A stretch of 64,000 nucleotides of DNA, from NCBI RefSeq assembly GCF_001580615.1, contig NZ_LHZC01000055.1, positions 62,001-126,000 on the forward strand, read 5' to 3'. The DNA comes from Acetobacter malorum (GTDB lineage Bacteria > Pseudomonadota > Alphaproteobacteria > Acetobacterales > Acetobacteraceae). The notes below the pieces were generated by a model that saw nothing but the letters and a program-made list of their open reading frames with translations, had not been told where the DNA came from and did not search any database. The translations under genes and the position numbers were made by a program. Shown here piece after piece: positions 15,573 to 28,786 of this stretch (positions within the stretch are counted from its first letter, which is position 1; each line of letters starts with the position of its first letter).

Positions 15573-17222
15573 TCAGGACTTTTTCTTCTTCTCTTTCTTG
15601 TCCTTTTTGTTCCGCTTTTCCTTCGCAGCGCGCTGCGAGGGGGCGGCCGTGCCGCCACGGGCGCGTTCAATCACAAAGCGGGCGTAGTCATCCATATCGC
15701 CATCAAACGGCACAATGGTGTTGTCTGCTGCCAGCCACAGGCGGTCCGCGACCAGCTCCATCAGCGAGCGATCATGGGTAATCAGCAGCACAGCCCCTTC
15801 ATACGCATTGAGTGCATCCAGCAGGGCGCGGCGGCTGTCGATATCCAGATGGTTGGTCGGTTCATCCAGAATGAGCAGATGCGGGGCGGACATGGCGACC
15901 ATGTTCAGCAGCAGGCGGGCGCGTTCCCCACCGGAGAGCGCTTCCACTTTGGTGCCCTGCTTTTCAAAATGGATGCCGAACTGTGCCAGCCGGGAACGGT
16001 GAGACTGGTCACTGTCCGTTGGCCGCGCTTCCCGCATGATATCCAGCGGGGTCTGCTGTGGGTCCAGCGCTTCAATCTGATGCTGATGGAACCAGCCCAC
16101 TTCCAGCCGGGCCGAGCGGGACACGCGGCCTGACCGCGCTTCCAGCGCACCCGCCACCAGCTTGGCGAAGGTGGATTTACCGGCCCCGTTCACGCCCAGC
16201 AGGCCGATGCGGTCATCCACATCCAGCCGCAGATCAAGGTCTTTCAGAATGGCCGGATCATCCCCGTAACCCACTTCCACATTTTCCAGCCGCAGCAGGG
16301 GCGGAGCCAGCGGGCGCGGCGGGGAGGGCAGGATGAAGGGGGAAACCTGTGCCTCAATGGTGGTTTCAATCGGCGTCAGCTTGGCCAGACGTTTCACACG
16401 GCTCTGGGCCTGTGCGGCCTTGGCGGCGGAGGCTTTGAAGCGATCCACGAAGGATTGCAGATGCGCGCGTTCGGCTTCCTGCTTGGCGCGGGTGGCACTT
16501 TGCAGGCGGATTTTTTCAGCTCGCTGATGCTCAAAGGAATCATAGCCGCCGGTATAGAGTTCCAGCTTGCCTTCCGTGACATGCAGCGTGAAATCCACTG
16601 AGTTGTTCAGCAGTTCACGGTCATGGCTGATAATCAGGGCGCAATGCGGATAGCGTTCCAGCCGGGCTTCCAGCCAGAGTGCGCCTTCAAGGTCCAGATA
16701 GTTGGTCGGTTCATCCAGCAGCAGCAGGTCAGGCTCGGAGAACAGGGCGGCGGCCAGTGCCACACGCATCCGCCAGCCACCGGAGAATTCCGCCATCGGG
16801 CGGTCCAGATCCTCGGTGGAGAAGCCAAGGCCGTTCAGAATTTCTGCTGCGCGGGAGGGGGCGCTGTCGGCATCAATTTCAATCAGCCGCATCCAGATAT
16901 CGCCCATGCGCTCCGGCTCAGCTGTTTCCAGCTCGGCCATCAGCGTGGCGCGTTCCAGATCGGCTGCCAGAATGGTTTCCAGCAAGGTGACATCCGTGGC
17001 CGGATGTTCCTGATCCACCGCTGCAATGCGGGCGGCCTTGGGGATGGAAATTTCACCGGAATCCGGCTGCAACTCGCCTTTAATCAGCTTGAACAGCGTG
17101 GATTTGCCAACCCCGTTCCGCCCCACAAGAGAGACCTTGGAGGGGTTGGGCAGGCTGACGCTGGCACGATTAAAAAACTGGCGTCCCCATGCGTTGAACA
17201 CGAGGCTGTCGATCTGGAGCAT
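15573..17222 (-). CDS. ABC-F family ribosome-associated ATPase
   Basis: 549-residue soluble protein with two ABC ATPase domains and no membrane part, hence ABC-F. Walker A motifs are GRNGVGKST (34-42) and GVNGAGKST in the second half; signature motifs are FSGGWRMR and LSGGERARL, followed by LLLDEPTNYLD and LILDEPTNHLD. The linker between domains is helical and charged (P-site tRNA interaction motif region). The C-terminus is a lysine-rich tail. Best guess is the Uup/YheS-like housekeeping branch that acts on stalled or structured ribosomes, not an antibiotic resistance type. No Shine-Dalgarno is visible; instead a strong hairpin ends five bases before the ATG. Confidence 0.93.
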   Translation of the reverse strand: MLQIDSLVFNAWGRQFFNRASVSLPNPSKVSLVGRNGVGKSTLFKLIKGELQPDSGEISIPKAARIAAVDQEHPATDVTLLETILAADLERATLMAELETAEPERMGDIWMRLIEIDADSAPSRAAEILNGLGFSTEDLDRPMAEFSGGWRMRVALAAALFSEPDLLLLDEPTNYLDLEGALWLEARLERYPHCALIISHDRELLNNSVDFTLHVTEGKLELYTGGYDSFEHQRAEKIRLQSATRAKQEAERAHLQSFVDRFKASAAKAAQAQSRVKRLAKLTPIETTIEAQVSPFILPSPPRPLAPPLLRLENVEVGYGDDPAILKDLDLRLDVDDRIGLLGVNGAGKSTFAKLVAGALEARSGRVSRSARLEVGWFHQHQIEALDPQQTPLDIMREARPTDSDQSHRSRLAQFGIHFEKQGTKVEALSGGERARLLLNMVAMSAPHLLILDEPTNHLDIDSRRALLDALNAYEGAVLLITHDRSLMELVADRLWLAADNTIVPFDGDMDDYARFVIERARGGTAAPSQRAAKEKRNKKDKKEKKKKS

Positions 17223-17227
17223 AAAGC

Positions 17228-17262
17228 GAGAGGTCCGGTAACAGGAAAGGGCCGGACCTCTC
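17228..17262 (-). promoter_or_regulatory. hairpin between dld and the ABC-F start codon
   Basis: A perfect 11-bp stem GAGAGGTCCGG / CCGGACCTCTC with a 13-nt loop sits in the 49-bp gap between dld and the ABC-F gene. Its 3' arm ends five bases before the ABC-F ATG, exactly where a Shine-Dalgarno would be. There is no T tract of note after it. It may be the dld terminator, or a structure controlling ABC-F translation. Confidence 0.6.
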
Positions 17263-17271
17263 TATCGCGTT

Positions 17272-18993
17272 TTAGACGCTCTCCGCCACCCAGTTCTTCT
17301 TTTTAGTGGCCAGACCAATGCCGGGGTTCATGCAGTTGCAGGGGTCCAGCTCCCGGTAATGCGCCAGCATGACATCGGGAGCCTGATAGAGATGGCCCAC
17401 ATTATGTTCCGCCGGGTAGCGCGCGCCCCGCTGGTCCAGACCGGGGAGCATGCTGTGCTCCACGTCCATGGCGTTGTAGCCTTTTTTGATGACGTAATCC
17501 TGATGCATCACATGGCACAGGAAGTGGCCGTAATAGAGTTTGACGATAATCTTGTCTTCAATCTCTTTCGGCAGTTTTTCAAACCAGTTGCGGTCGTTCC
17601 GGCGCAGGGCGACGTCCAGCGCCACAATGTCTTCCGCCTCACGGTGATGCACGGCGCGGTAGCGCACGGCAGCCCCCGCAGCGGCAAAGCGATGCAGGAA
17701 GGCGCGGGTGCCTTCATCGGGCGTGCATTCAAAAAATTCACCGGTCGCCTTGCTGAAGAACTGCTCCAGATAGGCCTTCATCGGGCCTGCCAGCGTGGCG
17801 GAGGTTTTCAGCATCAGGTGGTGTTCAAACTTGTCCCGATACTCCAGCATCCGGTTGGGCAGCTGGTTGGGGATAAACACGCTGAGTGCCTGCATAATGC
17901 GGTCGCTCAGGTTTTCAGGCAGGAAGCCGAACTGTTTGGCAAAAATGTCAAACCGGGACTTCATGGCGAACATCTTCGGCAGGAATTTCGTGCCAAATTT
18001 GCGGATAACTGCAAACGTGTCCTTGCCGTATTTCTCGGCAATGTTGAACGCATCGCGGTGGATGTATTCGCCTGCAATCGGCAGTTCTTCAAACCCGGTC
18101 AGCATATGGCGGCGGAGGTCTTCCAGCTCGTCCGTGCTGTTGGAGCCGATGTAGAACACCGCCGGGTTTTTTGCGGCGGGGAAAGTGTCCAGACGCACGG
18201 CAAACACCACCAGCTTGCCCGCGCAGCCTGCGGCTTCATGCCAGCGGGCCGGGTCTGCGTTAAAGCGGGCGGGGGTGTCCGCATCCACATCACGCACGTG
18301 GGTGATGTAGTTGTTGTCATGCCCGCGGCCTGCATCCCAGTCGATGTCCGCATCGGAGAAGGTGCCAGCCTGTAGCTTGTTCAGAATGGCTTCAGGGTCA
18401 TTCCCCAGCTGGATGCCCAGATGGTTGACGAGCTGGAGCTTGCCGTCTTCCCCCACCTGACCAAACACGGCCATTTCCGTATAGGCCGGGCCACGCTGCA
18501 CCAGCGCACCGCCCGAGTTGTTGCTGATGCCGCCCAGAACGGACGCCCCAATGCAGGATGAGCCGATAACGGAATGCGGTTCCCGCCCAATGGCGCCCAG
18601 CATGCCTTCCAGCTCATACAGCGTGGCGCCGGGCAGGCAGACAACCTGCTTGCCGCCGCCAATCATATGGGCACCGGTCAGCCGGAGGGTGCTGATGAGC
18701 ACGATCTCACGGTCATAATCATTGCCATCCGGCGTGGAGCCACCTGTCAGGCCGGTATTGGCGGCCTGCATGATGATAATCTTGCCCGCATCCACACAGG
18801 CCTGCGCCACCCGCCACAGTTCCACCAGCGTGCCGGGCTGCACCACAGCCAGCACCTTGCCCGCGCCAAAGCGGAAGCCGTGCCGGAAGCGGTAGGTTTC
18901 GGCCTCGCTGGTCAGCACGCGGCTGTGTCCGGCAATGTCCTTCAGGCGGCCCAGAAGAGACTGGTTCGCCGGGGTCTGGGCTGGGGCGGTCAT
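17272..18993 (-). CDS. dld: quinone-dependent D-lactate dehydrogenase
   Basis: 573-residue peripheral membrane flavoprotein that oxidises D-lactate to pyruvate and passes electrons to ubiquinone. The FAD-binding part has IIMQAANTGLTGGSTPDG and the SVIGSSCIGASVLGGISNN block near residues 95-160, as in E. coli Dld. The C-terminal membrane-binding part is present (KIIVKLYYGHFLCHVMHQDY and PAEHNVGHLYQAP). Length matches the E. coli enzyme. Acetic acid bacteria use such enzymes to feed lactate electrons directly to the respiratory chain, and a lactate permease lies 40 kb away in the window. The downstream ABC-F gene may be in the same transcript. Confidence 0.96.
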   Translation of the reverse strand: MTAPAQTPANQSLLGRLKDIAGHSRVLTSEAETYRFRHGFRFGAGKVLAVVQPGTLVELWRVAQACVDAGKIIIMQAANTGLTGGSTPDGNDYDREIVLISTLRLTGAHMIGGGKQVVCLPGATLYELEGMLGAIGREPHSVIGSSCIGASVLGGISNNSGGALVQRGPAYTEMAVFGQVGEDGKLQLVNHLGIQLGNDPEAILNKLQAGTFSDADIDWDAGRGHDNNYITHVRDVDADTPARFNADPARWHEAAGCAGKLVVFAVRLDTFPAAKNPAVFYIGSNSTDELEDLRRHMLTGFEELPIAGEYIHRDAFNIAEKYGKDTFAVIRKFGTKFLPKMFAMKSRFDIFAKQFGFLPENLSDRIMQALSVFIPNQLPNRMLEYRDKFEHHLMLKTSATLAGPMKAYLEQFFSKATGEFFECTPDEGTRAFLHRFAAAGAAVRYRAVHHREAEDIVALDVALRRNDRNWFEKLPKEIEDKIIVKLYYGHFLCHVMHQDYVIKKGYNAMDVEHSMLPGLDQRGARYPAEHNVGHLYQAPDVMLAHYRELDPCNCMNPGIGLATKKKNWVAESV

Positions 18994-19126
18994 AAGGAAG
19001 TGGCTCCGTCTGGATAAGGCTTAAAAAAGAATGAGGTGTTATAACACTGTTCTCTGGCCATGCCAGATCACAGATATGCGTTTGCGTTGGTGCGGCCTCC
19101 CGTTCCATGCGGGAAAGGCCCGCACA

Positions 19127-19699
19127 TCAGAGGGCTGCCGGTGCCGTGGGGGTGAAGTCGAACACCACGACCTTGGCCAAATACGGTCCGGCAAAGGTTT
19201 TGAAGGCATCATGTGCTGGGTCAAAGTGCCCTGCCTCGGTGACAATCGGGCGCCCGACGTAAAAGTTCCTGTCCCCTTCAGACTGGAAGGTAACCAGATA
19301 CCCCTGCTCCAGCCCGAGGTCGGAATTTTCTCCGCTGTTCTGCGCCCCTGTCTCAATGGACGTCACAACCGTCTTGCCATCCGCCCTGCGGGAGAGGGTG
19401 GTGAGGGCCACAAAGCGCCGCGTAACCTCCGCGCGCTGTGCCGCTGTCGTGCCGGGGCGGAAGGTGAACATCACCATATGGCGCACCACACCGAGCTTGT
19501 AGTCCGGAGCGGTAAAGCGCGCAGCCCCGACGGATTTTAGCTCGGCCCGCACAGCCCGAGCGGCAGCATCCAGAGCGGGCGTGGTGGCAGGCGTGGTTTT
19601 GTGGGCGGGGGCGCTCAGGGCAGGGGCTGCCAGCCCAAGAGCCAGAGCAGTCGGGGCACTGGCCCGTAGCAGGGTTTTCAGAAACGCGGGCAGAGACAT
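19127..19699 (-). CDS. exported Dabb (stress-responsive alpha/beta barrel) protein
   Basis: 190-residue protein. The start at 19699 has AGGAG ten bases upstream and yields a signal peptide (about 1-29, ending APALSAPA). The mature part is a ferredoxin-like Dabb domain: VRHMVMFTFRPGT near the start, then YLVTFQSEGDRNFY and HDAFKTFAGPYLAKVVVFDF at the end. Dabb proteins form dimeric barrels; few have known function, and an exported one is less usual. The Ala/Thr/Pro-rich linker after the signal peptide has no motif. An array of four 10-bp repeats lies just upstream. Confidence 0.8.
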   Translation of the reverse strand: MSLPAFLKTLLRASAPTALALGLAAPALSAPAHKTTPATTPALDAAARAVRAELKSVGAARFTAPDYKLGVVRHMVMFTFRPGTTAAQRAEVTRRFVALTTLSRRADGKTVVTSIETGAQNSGENSDLGLEQGYLVTFQSEGDRNFYVGRPIVTEAGHFDPAHDAFKTFAGPYLAKVVVFDFTPTAPAAL

Positions 19700-19730
19700 A
19701 AAGGGTTCTCCTGACTTAAATTTATCAACG

Positions 19731-19770
19731 CGCAAAGTGCCGCAAAGTGCTGCAAAGTGCTGCAAAGTGC
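19731..19770. repeat. four tandem copies of a 10-bp repeat
   Basis: Four consecutive copies of [CT]GCAAAGTGC occupy the spacer between the ClC gene and the Dabb gene, 32 bases upstream of the Dabb ATG. One helical turn per unit puts all copies on the same DNA face, so a cooperative regulator site is possible; slipped-strand expansion is the alternative. Confidence 0.8.
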
Positions 19771-19778
19771 ACGCCCGG

Positions 19779-21548
19779 TTAAACCCGGTATTTTTCCCCT
19801 GCCAGTTCCCGCCGGGTGCGTTCCAGTTCTTCCGCATAGCGGCGCAGCACGTAGCGCTCACTCAGCAGGCCGAGAATGTGGTTGTCGTCATCCACTACAG
19901 CCAGCGCCGGGCGGGCCAGCCGCTCGAACGTATCAATGGCGGTGGAGAGTGAGAGGGCCGGGGTCAGCGCCAGATCATCCGCGGCAACCAGTTCCGTCAG
20001 TGGCGTGGTTTCCGGCACGCGGTTGGCATGGAACAGCACGTTTTCCACCAGCCCTTTATAATGGTTCTGCTCGTCACACAGAATGATGTAGCGCGGTGTC
20101 TGGTTTGGGAAGGCGATGCGGGCGGCCTGCACGGTTTCCGTCGCGGGGAAGGTGGCGACTTCCGTGCGCATCATCCGCTCCACCGTCAGCGTGCGCATCC
20201 AGCCTACATCTACGCCGGAGCGGATATTCTCACCGCGCAGATGGAAGCGCCATGTGGCGAAGGAATAGCCAAAGGTCCGCCGCACCGTCATGGAGGACAC
20301 AATGGCCGAGACCACCACAGCGCCCGTTAGCGGCAGGCTGCCGGTCGTCTCCAGCGCCAGAAAGATCATGGTCATGGGGCCGCCAATAACGGCCACGGCC
20401 AGCGCGCACATGCCCACAATGGTGCAGACGGAAACAGGCAGCACGGCCAGCGGGGCGAGCGCTCCGGCAAAGACCGCGCCCGTCAGCACACCCAGATAGA
20501 GTGAGGCAAAAAACAGCCCGCCGCGAAAGCCCGAGCCAATGGAAATGGCAGAGGCCAGCGCCTTCAACCCCAGCAGGCCGAGGGCCAGCATGAAGGGCGG
20601 CGAGCTGATGAGCCCTGCCCGCATGGCCATGTGGCCGGAGGAGAGAACGGAGGGGGAAATGATCGCCAGCCCGCCCACCAGCAGGCCACCCAGCGCGGGG
20701 CGCAGCCAGACCGGCAAAGGCAGGCGCTGGAAGGTGTATTCCGTCAGCGTGACGCCACGCATCAGCATCACTCCCACCAGTCCGGCAAAAACGCCCAGCA
20801 GGATAATGGGGAAGTAAGCCAGCAGCGGGATGCCCTGCGGTGTGGCCACCCAGACGGGCGGCAGCACGGTGCCGGTCAGATGCACCACGCCAATACCGCA
20901 GATGGCAGCCAGTGCCACCGGGGCGAGGGCGGTAAAGGTGTAGGAGCCGATAATCAGTTCAAACGCATAAAACGCCCCGGCCAGAGGTGCATCAAACGCA
21001 GCCCCGATGGCCCCGGCGGCTCCGCAGCCGACCAGCAGGCGCACATCGGCCCGGTGCATGCGCAACTGCCGCCCGATGCGGGAGCCAAAGGCAGCTCCAA
21101 GCTGACTGAACCCGGCCTCCAGCCCCAGTGAGGCCCCGCAGCCATTGGAGAGAATGGTTTGCCCGGCCAGAATCAGACTGTCCCGAAAGGACATGCGGCC
21201 TCCATGCAGAGCATTGGCCTCAATCGGGTCTGCCGGGTGGAAGCGGGTTTTGCGGGCCAGATACAGGCTGGTCAGCCCCAGCAGCAGGCCGCCGCACGTG
21301 GGAACCAGCAGGGCGCGCACGGGGTTAACGGTTGCCAGCCCGGACAGGCGGCCAGATTCCGGGGCCAGCAGATGATGCGCGAGGAATGTTGCGGCCGTCA
21401 TCAGGCTGACAACACCACCCGCCAGCACGCCGACAAGGGCTGCCAGCGCGATCAGCCACAGAGTGTCTTTACGGACAAGCGCCCTGAGCGCCGCCAGAAG
21501 CCGGGGCGGCGTGTTGTGGGTGCGCATATGGTCCAGCAAGCCGGTCAT
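19779..21548 (-). CDS. ClC-family chloride channel/antiporter with CBS domains
   Basis: About 589 residues: an N-terminal ClC membrane domain of roughly 18 helices and a C-terminal pair of CBS domains (last 130 residues, with MRTEVATFPATETVQAARI and AVVDDDNHILGLLSE). ClC selectivity-filter landmarks are present as SNGCGASLGLEAGFSQLGA, with Glu in the place of the gating glutamate, and GSGFRGGLFFASLYLG. It probably exchanges chloride for protons, useful for acid tolerance, with the CBS pair sensing nucleotide or ionic state. Start is uncertain: 21548 or 21527 fit the family; frames up to 21677 run into AT-rich spacer. Confidence 0.9.
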   Translation of the reverse strand: MTGLLDHMRTHNTPPRLLAALRALVRKDTLWLIALAALVGVLAGGVVSLMTAATFLAHHLLAPESGRLSGLATVNPVRALLVPTCGGLLLGLTSLYLARKTRFHPADPIEANALHGGRMSFRDSLILAGQTILSNGCGASLGLEAGFSQLGAAFGSRIGRQLRMHRADVRLLVGCGAAGAIGAAFDAPLAGAFYAFELIIGSYTFTALAPVALAAICGIGVVHLTGTVLPPVWVATPQGIPLLAYFPIILLGVFAGLVGVMLMRGVTLTEYTFQRLPLPVWLRPALGGLLVGGLAIISPSVLSSGHMAMRAGLISSPPFMLALGLLGLKALASAISIGSGFRGGLFFASLYLGVLTGAVFAGALAPLAVLPVSVCTIVGMCALAVAVIGGPMTMIFLALETTGSLPLTGAVVVSAIVSSMTVRRTFGYSFATWRFHLRGENIRSGVDVGWMRTLTVERMMRTEVATFPATETVQAARIAFPNQTPRYIILCDEQNHYKGLVENVLFHANRVPETTPLTELVAADDLALTPALSLSTAIDTFERLARPALAVVDDDNHILGLLSERYVLRRYAEELERTRRELAGEKYRV

Positions 21549-21626
21549 GGCTGCGCTGAAACAGGCAGAGGGACGTCTGTCTGGTGTCTCACGCTGTCCG
21601 TAATGCCTGTTTTCTCCTGCGGGAGG

Positions 21627-21682
21627 AAATATTAAATTTAATATTTTCTTCTTATGGATATTAAAGAGGGTATCCATAAGAA
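21627..21682. repeat. 20-bp palindrome and 12-bp hairpin at the AT-rich boundary
   Basis: 21627-21646 is a perfect 20-bp palindrome of A and T only. Directly after it, 21649-21660 pairs perfectly with 21671-21682 (TTCTTATGGATA stem, 10-nt loop). Both lie between the ClC gene and the AT-rich gene, downstream of the latter, where composition changes sharply. They may act as a terminator or mark an insertion boundary. Confidence 0.75.
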
Positions 21683-21725
21683 TATATAACTATTTCCTCT
21701 GCGTTAATGAATGGATGAATAGATA

Positions 21726-23090
21726 TTATTTTTCCAAAAAAGTAATTTGCATGGCAATCAAATTCCCGCCTTGAGGTGCTTCAGACCATTGCCCATTAGA
21801 TGCTCTGATAGGAAAATGATCTCCTTGGAACAGGCCGCCATAAATACAATCGCATGTTAAGGATGCAGGTCCAGTAATACGAATTGCAAATGCTTGAATG
21901 GCAAGAGAATTTCCAATGGTTCCTGAAAAATCACCATTACTTTTCCATTCAGTGATGGTTCCATCTTTTAGTTTGGCTCGATATTCCAAATTGATATCAG
22001 GAGAATGTGATGTGATGGAAAATGCTTCTATGGACCTCATCTGTTCATCCATGCTGCCGCAGACGAGATTTCCACAAGGGCTGGCATCGGTTATTAAAGA
22101 GCGACTTATAAAATCTCCATGATTTGAAATGTGTGCCTTGAGTTCTATTTTCCAAATTCTTTCTTTTTCAAAGTCTTCTATAGAAAAAAGTTTCTTTCTT
22201 CTGTGAATTTTATCCTGTGCAACAGCCGGAATTGTGGATCCACCACTATCCTGGCGAATTTGCAGGGTTTCTTTTGATGTATTGTAGATATAGTGATTTA
22301 AAACAGGTTCATATGTTTTGCAAAATTTTTCAAAGCTTACAAAAGAAGAAAACGTTGATTCACAATTCCCAATAAAATACCGAGCATTTGAGGCAATCTC
22401 AAAATCAACAAGAGATAGAAAGAGATTATTTTTTTTGGAAATATCAAAAAAATCACTTTTGAAAAAAGCGTCAACGCCAAAGTCATTTTTAAAGTAATTT
22501 CTTACATCTTCCTTTTTGTCAGTATTTTTTTCATCACATAAAATATATATAGATTGAATATCAGGAAAAGTGTTGATGGTTTTTTGTATAATATTTTTGT
22601 AGGACTCTGAAGAACTGGAAAACCCTACCCAGTCGTTTTCAATGCGCATTTGTAACGCATGCTTGATACCAAGAGTGCCATAGAGGCTTTGGCAAAGAAT
22701 ATTTGAAAATTCCAGGATAAATTTCTTGGGGGTGAAAGTACGGATGATTTGTGCTCCCATTTCCCCAAGAGCACTTCGTCCGAGTTGACCTATTTCCCCA
22801 TATTTTTTGGCACCTTTACAGAAACAGTGCCATCCATCAGTAGTATCTTCTTCATTTCCGGTGGGGTTATCAATAATATTTACACCAAAAGAAGCCATAA
22901 CATTTTTTATGGCAGAAATTTCAAAATATTCATCTAGAGGAACTACTTTGTGTGTATTAATGCGGGGATCAAAGTCTACCAAATTAGGTAAAATTATGCT
23001 TTCTTGATATTCGAGTGCTTCATAAGCTAAACCAGTAAGTGATAGTTTTTGGTTTGTAATACCTAGACCGCAGTGGTTGTAGAAAAGCAT
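21726..23090 (-). CDS. AT-rich gene: O-fucosyltransferase-like domain plus ChW-like repeats
   Basis: 454-residue protein encoded by DNA far richer in AT than its neighbours. Residues 1-260 look like a GDP-fucose O-fucosyltransferase-type fold: an N-terminal glycine loop (NHCGLGITNQ), an LQMRIENDW segment near 146-154, and LVDFEIASNARYFIGN with STFSSF near 227-249, the donor-site arrangement of that superfamily. Residues 315-454 hold units resembling ChW (clostridial hydrophobic W) repeats, best seen as KLKDGTITEWKSNGDFSGTI followed by GNSLAIQAFAI at 373-403. No signal peptide. The start has AAGGGA upstream. I infer a glycosyltransferase of surface or protein glycosylation, with a possible carbohydrate- or wall-binding tail. 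Both assignments rest on motif pattern only. Composition suggests horizontal gain. Confidence 0.6.
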   Translation of the reverse strand: MLFYNHCGLGITNQKLSLTGLAYEALEYQESIILPNLVDFDPRINTHKVVPLDEYFEISAIKNVMASFGVNIIDNPTGNEEDTTDGWHCFCKGAKKYGEIGQLGRSALGEMGAQIIRTFTPKKFILEFSNILCQSLYGTLGIKHALQMRIENDWVGFSSSSESYKNIIQKTINTFPDIQSIYILCDEKNTDKKEDVRNYFKNDFGVDAFFKSDFFDISKKNNLFLSLVDFEIASNARYFIGNCESTFSSFVSFEKFCKTYEPVLNHYIYNTSKETLQIRQDSGGSTIPAVAQDKIHRRKKLFSIEDFEKERIWKIELKAHISNHGDFISRSLITDASPCGNLVCGSMDEQMRSIEAFSITSHSPDINLEYRAKLKDGTITEWKSNGDFSGTIGNSLAIQAFAIRITGPASLTCDCIYGGLFQGDHFPIRASNGQWSEAPQGGNLIAMQITFLEK

Positions 23091-23110
23091 GCTGACTGTC
23101 CCTTAATAAA

Positions 23111-23136
23111 TTGATTTTTTGTATATAAAAAATCAA
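23111..23136. repeat. AT-rich inverted repeat upstream of the fucosyltransferase-like gene
   Basis: Perfect 10-bp inverted repeat TTGATTTTTT / AAAAAATCAA with a 6-nt centre (GTATAT), 21 bases before the ATG of the minus-strand gene. A third AAAAAATCAA half-site follows at 23136-23145. It may overlap the promoter or act as an operator. Confidence 0.65.
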
Positions 23137-23209
23137 AAAAAATCAATAGTTCTGATATATTTCTATTGTGTTGAAAAGTTTTAGAATAATAAAAAATTTT
23201 CTCGTTTTA

Positions 23210-24358
23210 TTATAAAACCATAGGTGGCTGGTCTGCCAGAATTCGTGTCACGTCGTCATCCGTCAGGCTGTAGCGGAAGAACTGTTTGTAGAACGCTTTC
23301 AGGTCCCGGCGCACGTCGATGTCCTTGAAGAGTTCCGGCTGGACGTGCTGGGCCGCCCATTCCAGTTGAAGCAGAACCTCACACCCGTAGCGATCCCACG
23401 GGAACACACCCTGCGGGTTGGTCCATGCCTTGCCGTTCTGGAAAGCTGCCAAGGTGCGCAGCGGGGCGTCTGCCGCCAGAGGTCCGGCGTTGGCCCCGAT
23501 GACAATCATATCCGGGTTCCAGGCCGCAATCTGCTCAAACGTGACGGGGCGATGGTTGCCGGAAACTTCTGCCGCCGCATTGCGACCGCCAGCCGCCTGA
23601 ATCCATGCATCAATCAGCGTATCTTTGCCGTCAATTTGCAGGGGGTTAAGGCGGGCAATATGCAGCACACGTGGGCGGGCGGAGGCGGGCAGGGAGACCG
23701 TGCGGGCGTGCAGACTCTGCTGCAACGCTTCCAGCTTCTGGCGATATTCGCTGGCGATCTCATGCGCATAAGGCGTGGCGAGGGCGTCGGCCGTCATGTC
23801 CACGGAGGTGAGCATCTGTGGCAGTGTGGTGTAGTGCGCATCCAGCGTAGGCAGGCCGGTTTTGCGCAGTTCTTCCGCCTTGGCATGGGTGGGCACAAAG
23901 ACCAGCCCGATATGGCGGTTCAGCAGGTCTTCCGGGTTCACACTGTCCGGGTGGACGCCGGTTTCCGCCGAGCGCAGCATCGGGGCGACCTTAAACAGCC
24001 AGGGCAGGTCCGCCGGTTTGTCTGCCGAGACCTTAATGCGTTCCGCCCCGCCGAGCATGACGGTAATCTCGTTATGGGCAAACCAGAGGTCCGCAATGTT
24101 GGCGGCACTTTTGTCCAGCGCAACGCTGGCGCCACTCATATCCGTAACCGTGCGCGGATAGACCGGGATATTATTCACCGTCGGCATGGTGGCCACGGCC
24201 TGCGCGACAACATGCGCGCCGGGGCCAGCTGCGGGATGCGCCGGTTGTGCGGCAGCCTGACCGGACACAGCCAGAGGGGTGGCCAGCCCCACGCCCAGCA
24301 GGCTGAGCATGAGGGACGAGGAGCAGAGCAGTCTGCAACGGAGCATGAAAGAGCGCAT
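23210..24358 (-). CDS. periplasmic iron-complex/corrinoid-type binding protein
   Basis: 382-residue substrate-binding protein of the FecB/BtuF superfamily (cluster of helical-backbone binding proteins). The start at 24358 gives a signal peptide (about 1-39, ending GQAAAQP). The first lobe contains NIADLWFAHNEITVMLGGAERI, the linker region HIARLNPLQIDGKDTLIDAW, and the second lobe FEQIAAWNPDMIVIGANAG, a hallmark of this group. It should deliver a siderophore, heme or cobalamin to an ABC importer, but no permease or ATPase gene is nearby, so it is an orphan. A TATAAT-like box lies about 22 bases upstream of the ATG. Confidence 0.82.
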   Translation of the reverse strand: MRSFMLRCRLLCSSSLMLSLLGVGLATPLAVSGQAAAQPAHPAAGPGAHVVAQAVATMPTVNNIPVYPRTVTDMSGASVALDKSAANIADLWFAHNEITVMLGGAERIKVSADKPADLPWLFKVAPMLRSAETGVHPDSVNPEDLLNRHIGLVFVPTHAKAEELRKTGLPTLDAHYTTLPQMLTSVDMTADALATPYAHEIASEYRQKLEALQQSLHARTVSLPASARPRVLHIARLNPLQIDGKDTLIDAWIQAAGGRNAAAEVSGNHRPVTFEQIAAWNPDMIVIGANAGPLAADAPLRTLAAFQNGKAWTNPQGVFPWDRYGCEVLLQLEWAAQHVQPELFKDIDVRRDLKAFYKQFFRYSLTDDDVTRILADQPPMVL

Positions 24359-24451
24359 GAGTATCCCGGACCTGATCGTATTATATACGTTAGAATACAG
24401 AAGGCGCGGGTGCAATATGGCGGCTCTCCAAACACGAAAAGGGAAGAACCG

Positions 24452-24652
24452 GTGCGACAACACAAAGTAATGCTGGGGGATAAAGTGCTGTATCAGGCCG
24501 CGCAGCTGACCCATGCTGAACGCTTTGCCGCAGCGCGCCGGGCGGAGGGTGTGCCCTGCCATGTGGTGCCGGATACCACAGCCAAACCGCCGCGCCGGGA
24601 GCAGATCAACCCGCTCACCGGCCAGCCCCGCAAACGCGGACGGGTGCGTTAA
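24452..24652 (+). CDS. small basic protein, hypothetical
   Basis: 66 residues from a GTG at 24452 (60 from an in-frame ATG at 24470). GGGAAG lies upstream at spacing suitable for the GTG. The protein is rich in Arg and Ala and ends in a basic proline-rich tail (QINPLTGQPRKRGRVR). No family is recognised. It fills the only space between the divergent binding-protein gene and the pentose-phosphate operon and overlaps the end of the opposite 76-residue frame by four bases. Supported by position and site only. Confidence 0.45.
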   Translation: MRQHKVMLGDKVLYQAAQLTHAERFAAARRAEGVPCHVVPDTTAKPPRREQINPLTGQPRKRGRVR

Positions 24653-24879
24653 GCCAGCACCGTCCGGTTGCGCCGCCATGCGTCTTCCAGCGCATCGGCC
24701 GGGTCCTGATGCGCGTCACTCCACGCGCCCTCGGCGGCTTCCGGCGCATGGACCATGGCGCGCCATAAGGCGGGGCCCGTCGCGCGCTCCATCCGTATGG
24801 CCCATGAGGGGGGAATACGCGTGAGCAACCGTTCCATCTTCTGCCCGGATGTCAGCGGTTTTGCGTAATTATGGCCCAC
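24649..24879 (-). CDS. small hypothetical protein at the operon end
   Basis: 76 residues from a GTG start with AAGGGGG eight bases upstream. It lies 25 bases after the rpiA-gntK fusion on the same strand, so it would be the last gene of the pentose-phosphate operon. The sequence holds several Trp (PPSWAIRMERATGPALW) and a weakly acidic C-terminus; no signal, membrane segment or known motif is seen. Confidence 0.5.
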   Translation of the reverse strand: MGHNYAKPLTSGQKMERLLTRIPPSWAIRMERATGPALWRAMVHAPEAAEGAWSDAHQDPADALEDAWRRNRTVLA

Positions 24880-24904
24880 AGCGCATTCCCCCTTTTGCTT
24901 AAAG

Positions 24905-26242
24905 TCAGATGGTTTTCAGATAGGACAGAATTTCCGCAATGGTTTCAGCCGGATTGGTATCTGCGGACATGCTGAGGGCATGTTCATCCGCCGCCGGTGC
25001 TTCCAGCGTCTGCAACTGGCTGGGCAGCAGGGTGGGGGGCATATAGTGGCCCCGCCGGCGCTTCAGCCGTTCCAGCAGCACGGCTTCCGATGTGTGCAGA
25101 TAGATAAAGATGGGCTCCAGCCCGCCTTTGCGCAGCACATCCCGGTAGGAATGTTTCAGCGCGGAGCAGGTGAGAATCCCGCCGGTGCCCGCCCGGTTAC
25201 ACTCGGCCAGCCATTCCTGGCAGCGGGCCAGCCAGGGCCAGCGGTCTTCATCATTCAGCGGAATGCTGGCGGCCATTTTGGCAACATTGGCGGCGGGGTG
25301 CAGGTCATCCCCTTCCTGAAAAGGCCAGCCCAGCTCATTGCGCAGGCCCTCCGCAATGGTGGTCTTGCCGGAGCCTGAAACGCCCATAATCACCAGCAAC
25401 TGTTTTTTGATGCCGCTTGCCACCGGCTGTGTCGGCAACACGGTCTTGCTGCTGCCGTTCTCGTTCGGCACGGGCGGCACGCGGGTGACAGGCTCGGACG
25501 GGTCTAGTGCCGGGGTGGCAATCAGCCCGTCGGACACGGTGGGAGTAATCACGCGAATGCCCTCAGGGCCTGCGGTAATGGCCTGCGTCGCCATTTCAAT
25601 AAACAGCCCGTGTTCCACCACACCCACAATGCTGTGGATATCCGTGCCCAGCTTGTGCGGGTCTTCAATCGGGCCGAACACGCAATCCATAATCAGGTTC
25701 TTTTCATCCGTGAGATAAAAAGAGCCATCCCGGTGTTTGCGCGGGGTAACGTGCGCGCCCATGCGGCCGAGCTTTACCGCTACATTCTCCCAGCCAAAGG
25801 GAATGACTTCCACCGGCACCGGGCAGAGCATGCCCAAATGGTCAACATACTTGCTGCTGTCAGCCACAATCACAAACTGCTTTGCGGCGGAGGCGACAAT
25901 TTTCTCCCGCAGCAGCGCGCCGCCCCGGCCTTTAACGAGGTTGAGCGTGCGCGGCTCGATCTCATCCGCGCCATCAATGGTAATGTCGAGTTCAGGATGG
26001 GCGGCAAAGGTGGTGAGCGGAATGCCTTCCTCCCGCGCCTGTGCTTCCGTAGCGTCGGAGGTGGGAATGGCGCAGATTTTCAGCCCTTCCTCCCGCACGC
26101 GGCGGCCGAGTTCCGCCACGACAAAAAACGCTGTGGAGCCTGTGCCAAGGCCGACGGCCATCCCGTCCTGCACCAGTGATGCGGCCTTGATGGCGGCTTG
26201 CTGTTTCAGGTTGGCGGCGGGGTCTGGTGCTTTGCCGGTCAT
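24905..26242 (-). CDS. fused ribose-5-phosphate isomerase A and gluconokinase
   Basis: 445-residue fusion. Residues 1-235 form ribose-5-phosphate isomerase A: GLGTGST at 31-37, DGADEI at 90-95 with the catalytic acid, and KGRGGALLREK at 104-114. A Pro/Ser/Thr-rich linker of about 45 residues follows (236-280). Residues 281-445 are a thermoresistant-type gluconokinase: P-loop GVSGSGKT at 287-294, QEGDDLHP at 309-316, and TCSALKHSYRDVLR at 358-371. The protein would phosphorylate gluconate to 6-phosphogluconate and also interconvert ribulose-5-P and ribose-5-P, i.e. the steps just before and after Gnd, whose gene is in the same operon. The frame is open throughout, with no internal stop, so this is one protein as read. 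Confidence 0.93.
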   Translation of the reverse strand: MTGKAPDPAANLKQQAAIKAASLVQDGMAVGLGTGSTAFFVVAELGRRVREEGLKICAIPTSDATEAQAREEGIPLTTFAAHPELDITIDGADEIEPRTLNLVKGRGGALLREKIVASAAKQFVIVADSSKYVDHLGMLCPVPVEVIPFGWENVAVKLGRMGAHVTPRKHRDGSFYLTDEKNLIMDCVFGPIEDPHKLGTDIHSIVGVVEHGLFIEMATQAITAGPEGIRVITPTVSDGLIATPALDPSEPVTRVPPVPNENGSSKTVLPTQPVASGIKKQLLVIMGVSGSGKTTIAEGLRNELGWPFQEGDDLHPAANVAKMAASIPLNDEDRWPWLARCQEWLAECNRAGTGGILTCSALKHSYRDVLRKGGLEPIFIYLHTSEAVLLERLKRRRGHYMPPTLLPSQLQTLEAPAADEHALSMSADTNPAETIAEILSYLKTI

Positions 26243-26301
26243 GGAGAGGGTCCTTATTTTTGTTTTTTTATGGTCGGGTGTGGTGTCAGGGTGTGGGTGT
26301 T

Positions 26302-27045
26302 TTATACGTCTGCCGGGGCGGCGTCACGGTCCAGCACCCAGGTCAGATCGCCCATGGCGGTAATGGCACTCGCCGGGCAGGCGGGGTCCTGCGCGCGGAC
26401 TTTGGCCACCGTCTCCCGCTTGGAGGCACCTTCCACCAGAAAGACAACATGGCGGCTGGCATCAATGGCCGGGTAGGTCATGGTCAGGCGGGTATAGGGG
26501 GCGACGGGCGGCACGCAGGTGGAAACCCACGCCGTGCGTTCCTTCAGCACCGGCTGACCGGGGAAGAGGGAGGCCGTATGGCCATCGCTGCCCAGCCCGA
26601 GCAGATTGACATCAAACAGCGGCTTGCCCGGCTGGAGGGTGTCTGCCCCGTAAAACTTTTTCAGTTCGGCATCATACTCTTTGGCGGCGTCTTCCGCAGT
26701 GCCTGCCGTGGGGATGAGGTGCACATTTTCAGCCGGCACCGGCACGCGGGAGAACAGCAGGCGCTGGAGCATGCCGGAATTGCTGTCTTCATGGTCATGC
26801 GCCAGAAAGCGGTCATCCCCCAGAAAGAACTCCATGCGTGCCCAGGGGAAGCGGCTGGCATACGGCTCGGATGCCATCATGCTGTACAGTAGCTGCGGCG
26901 TGCTGCCGCCGGAAAGGGCAATGCTGAACGGCTCATCCTTTTTAGCCAGCGCCTCCTGCAGCAGCCAGTCGGCCAGATGGCGCGTGGCGGCTTCTCTGTC
27001 TGCAAAAACGGCAACTTTGCCAGTGCGGGTGTTCTGTCCGGTCAT
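26302..27045 (-). CDS. pgl: 6-phosphogluconolactonase
   Basis: 247-residue lactonase of the DevB/SOL family that opens 6-phosphogluconolactone to 6-phosphogluconate. The start at 27045 follows GAGAGGA and lies four bases after the stop of the HAD gene. Family motifs are FSIALSGGSTPQLLY near residue 40, FFLGDDRFLAHDHEDSN, and LLGLGSDGHTASLFPG. It sits between the second HAD gene and the rpiA-gntK fusion in the operon, consistent with the oxidative pentose-phosphate branch. No glucose-6-phosphate dehydrogenase gene is in the window. Confidence 0.95.
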   Translation of the reverse strand: MTGQNTRTGKVAVFADREAATRHLADWLLQEALAKKDEPFSIALSGGSTPQLLYSMMASEPYASRFPWARMEFFLGDDRFLAHDHEDSNSGMLQRLLFSRVPVPAENVHLIPTAGTAEDAAKEYDAELKKFYGADTLQPGKPLFDVNLLGLGSDGHTASLFPGQPVLKERTAWVSTCVPPVAPYTRLTMTYPAIDASRHVVFLVEGASKRETVAKVRAQDPACPASAITAMGDLTWVLDRDAAPADV

Positions 27046-27049
27046 GATA

Positions 27050-27868
27050 TCAGTCCTCTCCGAGCACAAACCGTTCAATGCCTTTGGCAAACCCATCCTC
27101 TTCAGAAGACGCAGTTGTCCATGTGGCGCTGGTTTGCACGCTTTCTGTCGCCTGCCCCATGGCAATGGAGGTGCCACTGGCGCGGAACATCAGCACATCA
27201 TTTGGCTGATCCCCAACGGTGAGCATGGCGGTGGCGGGTATGTTCAGCAGGCGTTCCAGCGTGTGGACAACGCCGCCTTTGTTGGCATCCGGGTGGGTGA
27301 TGTCAACATAATAGGGTTGAGACAGGGCGGCGGAAGCCGAGGCCCCCAGCTCCTGCGCCAGCGTGTTGGCCACGCGGCGCATCAGCTCCGCATCATCACT
27401 CACACCGGTAATCTTGATCACATCATCCAGCACGTCATCATAAGAACTGGTGACGCGGGGCGGGAATTTGACTGTCCATTGCTCCCGCGCCACGTGCGGC
27501 GCGGAGGCATCCGGCACCAGCCAGTCCTGCGAAGTATAAACCCACGCGGGCACACCGTGCTCTTTCAGCAAAGCGAGAGTTTTTTCCGCAACCGTACGGG
27601 GCAGGCGCAGGGCACTGATAAGGTGCATATCCGGCCGCACCATCATGCCGCCGTTAAAGCCTGCCAGCGGGGTTGTCAGCCCTAGTGGCTCAATGAGCAT
27701 GGCCATGCCACGGGGTGGCCTGCCGGATGTAATGGCAAACAGAATATCCCGCGCCCGCAAGGCCTGCACGGCCCGGATAGCACGCGGGGTGAGAATTTTC
27801 TCCCGCGTGACCAGTGTGCCATCCACATCAGCCAGCACCAGCCGGATGTCATGCGGCGGGCGGGGCAT
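27050..27868 (-). CDS. Cof-type HAD-IIB phosphatase (second of pair)
   Basis: 272-residue haloacid-dehalogenase hydrolase of the Cof/IIB type. The nucleophile and general acid are in VLADVDGTLV (DVDGT at 14-18), and the C-terminal VGDQPNDVLMFRASG supplies the metal-binding aspartates. The large C2 cap between them marks the IIB class, which mostly dephosphorylates sugar phosphates. It is separated by three bases from an upstream paralogue and by four from pgl, so it is translationally linked with the operon. The substrate is unknown; a pentose-phosphate intermediate is a reasonable guess. Confidence 0.9.
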   Translation of the reverse strand: MPRPPHDIRLVLADVDGTLVTREKILTPRAIRAVQALRARDILFAITSGRPPRGMAMLIEPLGLTTPLAGFNGGMMVRPDMHLISALRLPRTVAEKTLALLKEHGVPAWVYTSQDWLVPDASAPHVAREQWTVKFPPRVTSSYDDVLDDVIKITGVSDDAELMRRVANTLAQELGASASAALSQPYYVDITHPDANKGGVVHTLERLLNIPATAMLTVGDQPNDVLMFRASGTSIAMGQATESVQTSATWTTASSEEDGFAKGIERFVLGED

Positions 27869-27871
27869 GGG

Positions 27872-28786
27872 TCAGGCCCCGGCGGGCGTGCCGGGGGATG
27901 CGGCAGGCGCGCTGGCGGGGTGATCGTTCAGGGAGACCGCACGGGGCAGCACAAGGGTTTCAATGGCTTTGGACCAGCCTTCATCCGTATTGGCGGCTGT
28001 CACAAAATGGGCCTGCGCGGCCACACCTTCGGAGGCCTGCCCCATGGCGATGGCAAGGCCTGCGACTTTGAACATCGGCACATCGTTGTCCATATCGCCA
28101 ATGCAGGCCACTTCGGAAGGATCAACCCCGTAGAACTCTGCCAGATGGCGCAGGGCGTTGCCCTTGTTGGCATCCAGCGGGGTAATATCAAGGAACCACT
28201 GGCTGGAGCGGGCAACACTTGCGCGGCCTTCCAGCAGCATCCCAATTTCGGCTTCCTGCCGGGCAACGGCATCATAATCGGCAGAGGAGCCGGTGATTTT
28301 GCCAATACCGGTGGTGGAGCCTGCAAAGCTGGAGACGATCTGCGGGTCCATACGCACGGCTTTGCGTTCCGGCTCCACATACGCACCGGTGGGGTTATCC
28401 ACCAGCCATTCATGCCCACGGAACAGCCAGGCATCCAGATTATGCACTTTCAGCATATCCAGCGCGTCCTGCACCGCTCCCGGGTCCAGTGCCAGCTGGG
28501 AGCGCACCGTGCGGTCGGCATTGAAGATTGTGCCGCCATTTAACGCGCCATACGGCGTGTGCAGGCCGAGCACATCAAAATACATCTCAATCCCGCCCGG
28601 CGGGCGGCTGCTGACGAGGCACAGCGGAATACCCGCGTCTTTCAGCGCCTGCACGGCGGCCAGCGTGTGGTGCGTGACCTGCTTTTCCGGGGTCAGCAAG
28701 GTGCCGTCCATATCGGATACCACCAGCTTGATGCGAGACGCCGGGGGCGCAAGAGCGGCGTGAAGGGCGTTATCGGTAACCGTCAT
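27872..28786 (-). CDS. Cof-type HAD-IIB phosphatase (first of pair)
   Basis: 304-residue HAD-IIB protein, a paralogue of the next gene. LVVSDMDGTLLTPEK places the catalytic aspartates at 25 and 27; CIGDMDNDVPMFKVAGLAIAM is the C-terminal metal site. It has an extra Ala/Pro-rich tail. The shared segments PLDANKGNALRHL and (in the paralogue) HPDANKGGVVHTL show that the two arose by duplication. It follows gnd after a 45-base gap. Presumed cytosolic sugar-phosphate phosphatase; substrate not shown by sequence. Confidence 0.9.
   Translation of the reverse strand: MTVTDNALHAALAPPASRIKLVVSDMDGTLLTPEKQVTHHTLAAVQALKDAGIPLCLVSSRPPGGIEMYFDVLGLHTPYGALNGGTIFNADRTVRSQLALDPGAVQDALDMLKVHNLDAWLFRGHEWLVDNPTGAYVEPERKAVRMDPQIVSSFAGSTTGIGKITGSSADYDAVARQEAEIGMLLEGRASVARSSQWFLDITPLDANKGNALRHLAEFYGVDPSEVACIGDMDNDVPMFKVAGLAIAMGQASEGVAAQAHFVTAANTDEGWSKAIETLVLPRAVSLNDHPASAPAASPGTPAGA

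Follow-up and report, generated by a model that had tools for sequence, protein, structure and literature searches.

An AT-rich single-gene insert in Acetobacter malorum encoding a predicted O-FucT-superfamily glycosyltransferase joined to a ChW-like module

What does a solitary AT-rich gene between two ordinary chromosomal genes of an acetic acid bacterium encode, and how did it get there? The gene in question lies in a 64,000-nucleotide stretch of the Acetobacter malorum genome (contig NZ_LHZC01000055.1, positions 62,001 to 126,000; in the following called the window), which belongs to contig C56 of the genome labeled G000 in our comparisons. A first-pass annotation, made from the sequence without database searches, had described it as a newly acquired gene that joins an O-fucosyltransferase-like domain to ChW-like repeats and might act in surface glycosylation or host interaction. 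The link to glycosylation appears to have been right; our results contained no sign of a part in host interaction. We consider it moderately probable that the gene was acquired laterally as a cassette of its own and that its product is an O-FucT-superfamily glycosyltransferase of the cytosol, equipped with a docking module, that would transfer a 6-deoxyhexose, rhamnose being the first candidate, onto a surface glycan.

The enzyme would be a soluble, inverting glycosyltransferase of the GT-B type within the O-FucT (POFUT/FUT8/NodZ) superfamily. Residues 1–290 would bind a nucleotide-activated donor and transfer its sugar by means of a POFUT1-type active site made up of an Asn near the N-terminus, an R..DW motif and an STF motif, and the ChW-like repeats would serve as a docking or glycan-binding module that keeps the enzyme on its acceptor. 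The donor would be dTDP-L-rhamnose and the acceptor a surface polysaccharide or lipopolysaccharide precursor of cytosolic origin. The gene may stem from a pool of often AT-rich glycosyltransferase genes turning over at a few Acetobacter slots, and its advantage could lie in varied surface glycans, for example against phages.

A single-gene insert at a chromosomal site

The following features delineate the insert, its gene and the two flanking genes.

21630..23222, no strand: AT-rich insert of 1,593 bp, delimited by blastn against the sister genome G017 (L125), missing at this site in G017 and most relatives
21726..23090, minus strand: gene for a 454-amino-acid O-FucT-like/ChW-like fusion protein, from the open reading frame (ORF), Pfam and relatives with the same architecture
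19779..21548, minus strand: flanking gene for a ClC chloride channel with CBS domain (Pfam PF00654, PF00571), start uncertain
23210..24427, minus strand: flanking gene for a periplasmic-binding protein (Pfam PF01497), start uncertain, its last codons and stop inside the insert

The 454-codon gene on the minus strand has a GC content of 0.359 (0.279 at third codon positions), whereas windows of 1,365 bases outside the island, taken in 50-base steps, average 0.595 (sd 0.031) and never fall below 0.499. The base composition is indeed unlike that of the neighbours, as had been noticed at first reading. The gene is the sole ORF of at least 80 amino acids lying wholly inside the insert. When the window was compared with G017 by blastn, homology was lost at 23223 and came back at 21629, with 90.8–92.1% identity in the flanks, and the site spans 93 bases in G017 versus 1,593 in the window. 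Among the 28 Acetobacter genomes besides G000 that have both flanking genes on one contig, 23 show a gap of at most about 330 bases between the two matches. The gap measures 2.8–4.3 kb in G012, G044, G029 and G027, and in G006 the two genes lie far apart. G005, G023 and G033 have a short junction at this site, which we call the fecB-ClC site, presuming the periplasmic-binding protein to be FecB-like, and carry their own copy of the gene elsewhere. A copy with normal composition was not found at this site in the relatives, and the absence of the insert from G017 and most others bears out the proposal of a newly acquired gene. The island itself was correctly recognized; its limits, first given as 21600–23210, move to 21630–23222.

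The contig NZ_LHZA01000075.1 (L004) of A. cerevisiae LMG 1625 carries an island edge and the ClC gene. In G004, taken as the same strain, the two edges of the island are recognizable (96.0% and 99.9% identity), and two contigs break off within the gene at points some 1,080 bases from each other; the middle of the gene was not found in this genome, and the break may represent an interrupted gene or an assembly gap. The ends of these contigs (L136:1683-1703, L137:1-17) consist of unmatched sequence that may belong to an insertion element.

Three palindromes lie in the intergenic stretches on either side of the gene.

21624..21649, no strand: AT-rich palindrome across the left edge of the insert (repeat search, shuffles)
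21649..21682, no strand: perfect inverted repeat with 12-bp arms and a 10-base loop between the gene end and ClC (repeat search, shuffles)
23111..23136, no strand: AT-rich palindrome 5′ of the start codon, possibly due to chance (repeat search, shuffles)

The suggestion that palindromes bound the island on both sides stands for the left, where the two observed compare with a mean of 0.03 in 100 shuffles, none of which reached two; the left pair exceeds chance. It is not solid on the right, where 6 of the 100 shuffles reached the single palindrome. Among 181 loci compared, the perfect 12-bp repeat is confined to those covering this site, from G000 and A. cerevisiae/G004. We detected no tRNA gene in window positions 17000–28000 and no transposase, integrase or phage gene within the insert, with its one ORF of at least 80 amino acids. 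A comparison of the junctions by eye revealed no target-site duplication, and the gene had no match in the plasmid collection that would point to plasmid origin. On the ClC side (21549–21677), a longer ORF extending to 21677 runs into the AT-rich insert; homology of ClC with distant relatives begins near 21549–21567, and therefore the true start probably lies further downstream.

Predicted fold and active site of the N-terminal domain

Both parts of the fusion passed the Pfam cut-offs in a profile search, confirming the two domain assignments of the first-pass annotation: O-FucT (PF10250) on residues 163–252 (E 1.1e-7, 32.3 bits against a cut-off of 31.5) and ChW (PF07538) on residues 381–407 (E 8.1e-6, 26 bits against 22), the latter with one repeat only. 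NCBIfam and PHROGs yielded no match to the protein.

22221..23090, minus strand: N-terminal glycosyltransferase domain, residues 1–290 (predicted model, VIA-align)
22335..22604, minus strand: Pfam O-FucT PF10250 stretch, residues 163–252 (Pfam)
23052..23054, minus strand: codon of N13, matching N43 of Caenorhabditis elegans POFUT1 (CePOFUT1) in the HMMER alignment (compare the available passages of PMC3180450 and PMC8631701)
22629..22652, minus strand: Q147-M-R-I-E-N-D-W154, matching CePOFUT1 H238-L-R240-N-D-A-D244-W245 (profile alignment)
22347..22358, minus strand: S245-T-F-S248, matching CePOFUT1 S355-T-F357-S (profile alignment)

A structure was modeled with the window protein, four viral relatives and L004 as input. 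The mean predicted local distance difference test (pLDDT) value of the model is 62.1, with most ten-residue blocks of residues 11–280 at 70–94 and most of residues 283–454 below 50. Foldseek returned CePOFUT1 (3zy3, E 3.4e-7) as the best match of the predicted N-terminal fold. In VIA-align, the highest Z scores belong to CePOFUT2 (19.8), human POFUT1 (17.1), NodZ (15.7), FUT8 (15.2) and AtFUT1 (14.0). POFUT/FUT8/NodZ-type structures span 13.7–19.8, and the next other GT-B enzyme, a heptosyltransferase of Escherichia coli, follows at 7.3, among the rows below Z 8 that we treated as background. The protein resembles the animal POFUT1 and POFUT2 in predicted fold (Z 16–20) at 12–18% identity in the structural alignment. 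Bradyrhizobium NodZ, like the window protein a bacterial enzyme, and FUT8 fall into the same GT-B superfamily (Z 15–16) but score lower than the POFUTs. POFUT1 is classified as GT65, POFUT2 as GT68, and NodZ and FUT8 as GT23; the last two carry the motif HxRRTD, which differs from that of the window protein, and we know of no ChW module in either.

The sequence profiles also lead to POFUT1. We used alignments of five full-length sequences (A1), 18 rows (A2) and eight rows (A4). Searching the PDB with the A2 profile placed CePOFUT1 on top (E 1.9e-5) and aligned the NQ, LR..DW and STFS motifs; the NQ, LR..DW and STF motifs are common to POFUT1 and the window protein. CePOFUT1 residue numbers are given as the chain numbering in the profile output plus 21. 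N13, R149, D153, W154 and F247 of the window protein face CePOFUT1 N43, R240, D244, W245 and F357, and all five are invariant in the eight rows of A4; the R..DW motif is kept in 17 of the 18 rows of A2, at 25–36% identity. In the available passages of the mutational study of CePOFUT1, R240A/K is catalytically dead, N43A and W245A lower the activity 25-fold and 12.5-fold, respectively, and F357A has lower GDP affinity (PMC3180450). Asn43 is described, in the corresponding part of PMC8631701, as the proton shuttle of POFUT1. The predicted fold and the matching residues support membership in the O-FucT superfamily and a plausible active site; fold similarity is silent on donor and acceptor.

A hydropathy scan, the only approach taken here, indicated neither a signal peptide nor a membrane segment (highest 19-residue hydropathy 1.15, at residue 124), consistent with a cytosolic place. 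The missing signal peptide by hydropathy, the extra ChW-like module and a genome without gmd above cut-off distinguish the window protein from POFUT1 and POFUT2. We had also considered a defence protein; PADLOC gave no match and this candidate was rejected.

Recurrence of the domain pair and possibly exchangeable slots

Split profiles for the two parts identified at least 14 full-length O-FucT/ChW genes in 11 Acetobacteraceae genomes; the pair, of which the first-pass annotation knew no described example in an acetic acid bacterium, is therefore not peculiar to this gene, and we rejected the idea of a unique oddity. Among the 49 Acetobacter genomes, full-length genes occur in G000, G005, G046 (two), G033 and G023, and a fragment in G004. 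A sample of 397 Acetobacteraceae genomes was searched with the A1 profile, scoring at most four candidates per genome. Among the matches listed, which do not include G046, G033 and G023, were full-length genes in G000, G005, G323, G412 (two), G365, G405 (two), G325 and G224 and matches to the N-terminal part in G143, G139, G120 and G224:C4. Outside the family we screened samples of the larger groups. In the class sample (385 genomes, E 1e-8) no N-terminal match was found beyond G000, and two genomes outside the family matched in the C-terminal module only; in the phylum sample (398 genomes, E 1e-6) only G000 and G940 matched. Among the titles listed from the open-access literature, which included work on auxin and plant walls and a review of monoderm surfaceomes, none concerned the O-FucT and ChW pair, which is weak evidence of absence.

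The GC content of the gene is lower than that of its flanks for 12 of the 14 full-length genes, and by at least 0.10 for eight. In a tree of 22 domains, the window gene clusters with G323, one of the G412 genes and the remaining Acetobacter genes, at a support of 90/98 that is not starred. The second O-FucT/ChW-like gene of G412 (L078:6860-8434), with normal GC and lacking the active-site Arg and Trp, is perhaps an inactive or changed paralogue.

Two chromosomal sites harbour glycan-related genes that differ between genomes. The fecB-ClC slot contains an O-antigen ligase gene in G012 (L133:2706-4987), G044 (L134:2617-6672) and G029 (L135:1765-4789); in G012 and G044 a glycosyltransferase gene accompanies it, and G044 and G029 also have a protoglobin-MCP gene there. 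In G005, G046, G033 and G023, the O-FucT/ChW gene is situated between genes that we take from their sequences to encode P-II (glnK-like) and an ammonium transporter (amtB-like), directly preceded by a GT2_4-like gene (scanned with Pfam in G005 and G023). We inspected the region upstream of amtB in 12 other genomes. Different genes with a GC content of 0.27–0.46 are present in G000, G017, G014, G047 and G026, comprising GT2_4-like, GT92, GT17, DUF4422, GDSL-like and HAD types; genes that we read as transposase-like occupy the place in G011 and G025, no such genes were seen in G045 and G012, and the sequences of G004, G042 and G024 end too soon to judge. These patterns suggest that acetic acid bacteria have chromosomal slots at which surface-glycan genes are exchanged. 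Viewed on its own, the amtB slot (G000:C15, L163:936-5101; L165, L169, L170, L171) holds changing, AT-rich and mostly glycan-type genes in 5 of the 12 genomes. The GT17 protein of G026 has a C-terminal F5/8 type C domain, a parallel to the glycosyltransferase plus ChW arrangement.

Spread by phages is possible. A phage-derived cargo gene (moron) could, by lysogenic conversion, alter the host's surface receptor or glycosylate phage fibres, and a lone AT-rich gene with its own intergenic stretches would fit such an origin. Relatives of the N-terminal part occur on four IMG/VR contigs at 25–31% identity; the one on L147 neighbours an endolysin gene, those on L149 and L150 neighbour tail genes, and the L150 relative also follows a gene that resembles ABC-2 permeases at a score under the Pfam cut-off. 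Foldseek further matched O-fucosyltransferase-like proteins of viruses in BFVD, for example from Brazilian cedratvirus (E 1.6e-5) and Synechococcus phage S-SCSM1 (E 2.0e-4). However, the insert contains no phage gene, the viral forms differ from the window protein in lacking the ChW module, the O-FucT cut-off is passed by a single one of the four (L148), and in the tree all of them are placed away from the window gene. On L148 the sequence read shows no clear phage gene beside the relative, which adjoins a GT2_4/GT92 gene. In INPHARED, neither of the two viral proteins searched there (those of L147 and L149) had a relative, and the window protein gave two weak matches to its C-terminal part. 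PHROGs had no match for the four viral relatives, a viral scan with the ChW-like alignment A6 gave 29 pattern matches, none of them a relative, and further viral scans added no new contig. We regard the moron explanation as unlikely, although it fares best among the alternatives.

The ChW-like module, candidate donor and acceptor

21729..22154, minus strand: ChW-like module, residues 313–454, three degenerate repeats possible (Pfam, profiles, alignment)
21870..21950, minus strand: repeat above the Pfam ChW PF07538 cut-off, residues 381–407 (Pfam)

Comparing unit profiles, r1-r2 scored 20.7 (30 shuffles at most 14.8) and r2-r3 20.0 (at most 11.5), and r1-r3 stayed within the shuffles (11.2; at most 13.8), which suggests two further ChW-like units beside the Pfam repeat. 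With the clostridial hydrophobic W (ChW) repeat proteins, the window protein shares one repeat above cut-off and possibly, with partial support, the tandem units, but here the module sits on a Gram-negative, probably cytosolic glycosyltransferase, judging from hydropathy only. The available part of PMC8051824 calls the function of ChW unknown, perhaps peptidoglycan binding. Nor is ChW, which the first-pass annotation knew mostly from Gram-positive surface proteins, a mark of such proteins: PF07538 is above cut-off in 36 of the 49 Acetobacter genomes versus none of 14 control genomes. The A1 profile matched 252 of the 397 Acetobacteraceae genomes, and nearly all matches listed cover the C-terminal module only.

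A profile of the module detected it on 12 further ORFs within the sequence inspected, and 23 copies were aligned. Pfam scans of ten of these ORFs identified GT61 domains in five proteins, GSCFA in three, GT2-type domains in two and a GT1/4-type domain in one, with methyltransferase-like matches below the Pfam cut-offs on two ORFs. One ORF of 1,450 amino acids in G389 fuses TPR, GT2, GT1/4 and ChW. The most conserved ChW carrier (about 400 amino acids) lies in G000 amid ABC transporter, HlyD, Sel1-repeat, TPR-GT2-GT4 and GT4 genes. Because the module keeps company with glycosyltransferases, we favor a docking or glycan-binding role, and the association of ChW with a Gram-negative glycosyltransferase set offers a direct route to testing ChW binding. 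Among the carriers, one GT61 protein (L082:3764-5803) bears two ChW-like modules. The row on G000:C9 (L175:17862-19901, L161:687-10127) reads ABC, HlyD, Sel1-repeat, TPR-GT2-GT4, ChW-like, GT4, and similar rows in G026, G046 and G048 (L177, L178, L179) were judged by length and sequence start alone. The ABC/HlyD/ChW/glycosyltransferase row is apparently conserved in the genus and possibly forms a secretion-linked glycosylation system.

For the donor, gmd (TIGR01472) was above cut-off in 6 of the 49 Acetobacter genomes (G010, G012, G018, G019, G020, G032) and not in any of the six genomes that carry the gene or its fragment (G000, G004, G005, G023, G033, G046); fucose salvage was not searched. 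rmlD (TIGR01214) passed in 39 of the 49, including all six. Since the six combine no gmd above cut-off with rmlD, dTDP-L-rhamnose ranks ahead of GDP-fucose and is most likely the donor in the genus, as far as these profiles indicate. A soluble bacterial enzyme with a predicted POFUT1-type site, occurring where no GDP-fucose pathway is evident, would be a model for donor and acceptor change within this fold.

Several observations weigh against this reading. The O-FucT score is barely above cut-off, G000 is the one genome of the 49 to pass it, and the G005 match falls below; in the PDB profile search, no single POFUT1 stretch passes alone. CePOFUT1 R40 and H238 are replaced by G10 and Q147 in the window protein and thus not conserved, residues 150–161, adjoining the R..DW motif, have a pLDDT below 50, and the second G412 gene (one of the 18 A2 rows) has no equivalents of R149 and W154. 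The available passages on CePOFUT1 describe D244A as only slightly affected (PMC3180450). The module is poorly modeled (mean pLDDT 39.4), the Pfam ChW cut-off is reached on only 3 of the 10 scanned module ORFs, and a binding role is suggested by association only. The absence of gmd depends on one hidden Markov model cut-off. Finally, 2 of the 14 full-length genes are not below their flanks in GC content (G023, 0.00; one G412 gene, +0.03).

Other acceptors and donors can be considered. A cytosolic protein O-glycosyltransferase might place a deoxyhexose onto Ser/Thr of a bacterial protein on which ChW docks, the target perhaps leaving the cell through the conserved cluster of ABC/HlyD and glycosyltransferase genes. 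The nearest solved structures, POFUT2 and POFUT1 before NodZ and FUT8, the retained POFUT1 residues, the conserved ChW protein among glycosyltransferase genes near HlyD and ABC in G000 and the G389 fusion are consistent with this. EarP (GT104), a bacterial GT-B enzyme, transfers rhamnose from dTDP-rhamnose onto protein according to the accessible part of PMC5615199; it belongs to another family, has an arginine acceptor and is likened to the window protein by description only. Yet fold likeness does not reveal the acceptor, none was identified beside the gene, and the O-antigen ligase genes of relatives at the same slot point to polysaccharide, so that we view a protein acceptor as rather improbable. 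The doubts are stronger for a true GDP-fucose-dependent enzyme that transfers L-fucose onto a surface glycan: the high structural matches (Z 13.7–19.8) are fucosyltransferases, all of which we take to use GDP-fucose, but the lack of gmd above cut-off in the six Acetobacter genomes speaks against it. Compared with these, the surface-glycan rhamnosyltransferase proposed above remains our preferred interpretation.

More speculative still is a bacterial cytosolic POFUT-like family that O-glycosylates proteins with a non-fucose deoxyhexose, is steered by ChW and spreads through phages or lateral transfer as cassettes; if true, eukaryotic-style domain-specific O-glycosylation would also be a bacterial trait. 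The least probable explanation is that the imported gene is functionless in this strain and decaying. The G004 contigs ending within the gene and the patchy distribution could be cited for it, but a gap in the assembly may account for the break in G004, the copy in the window is intact and retains its active-site residues, and the R..DW motif persists across nearly all A2 rows despite their low identity.

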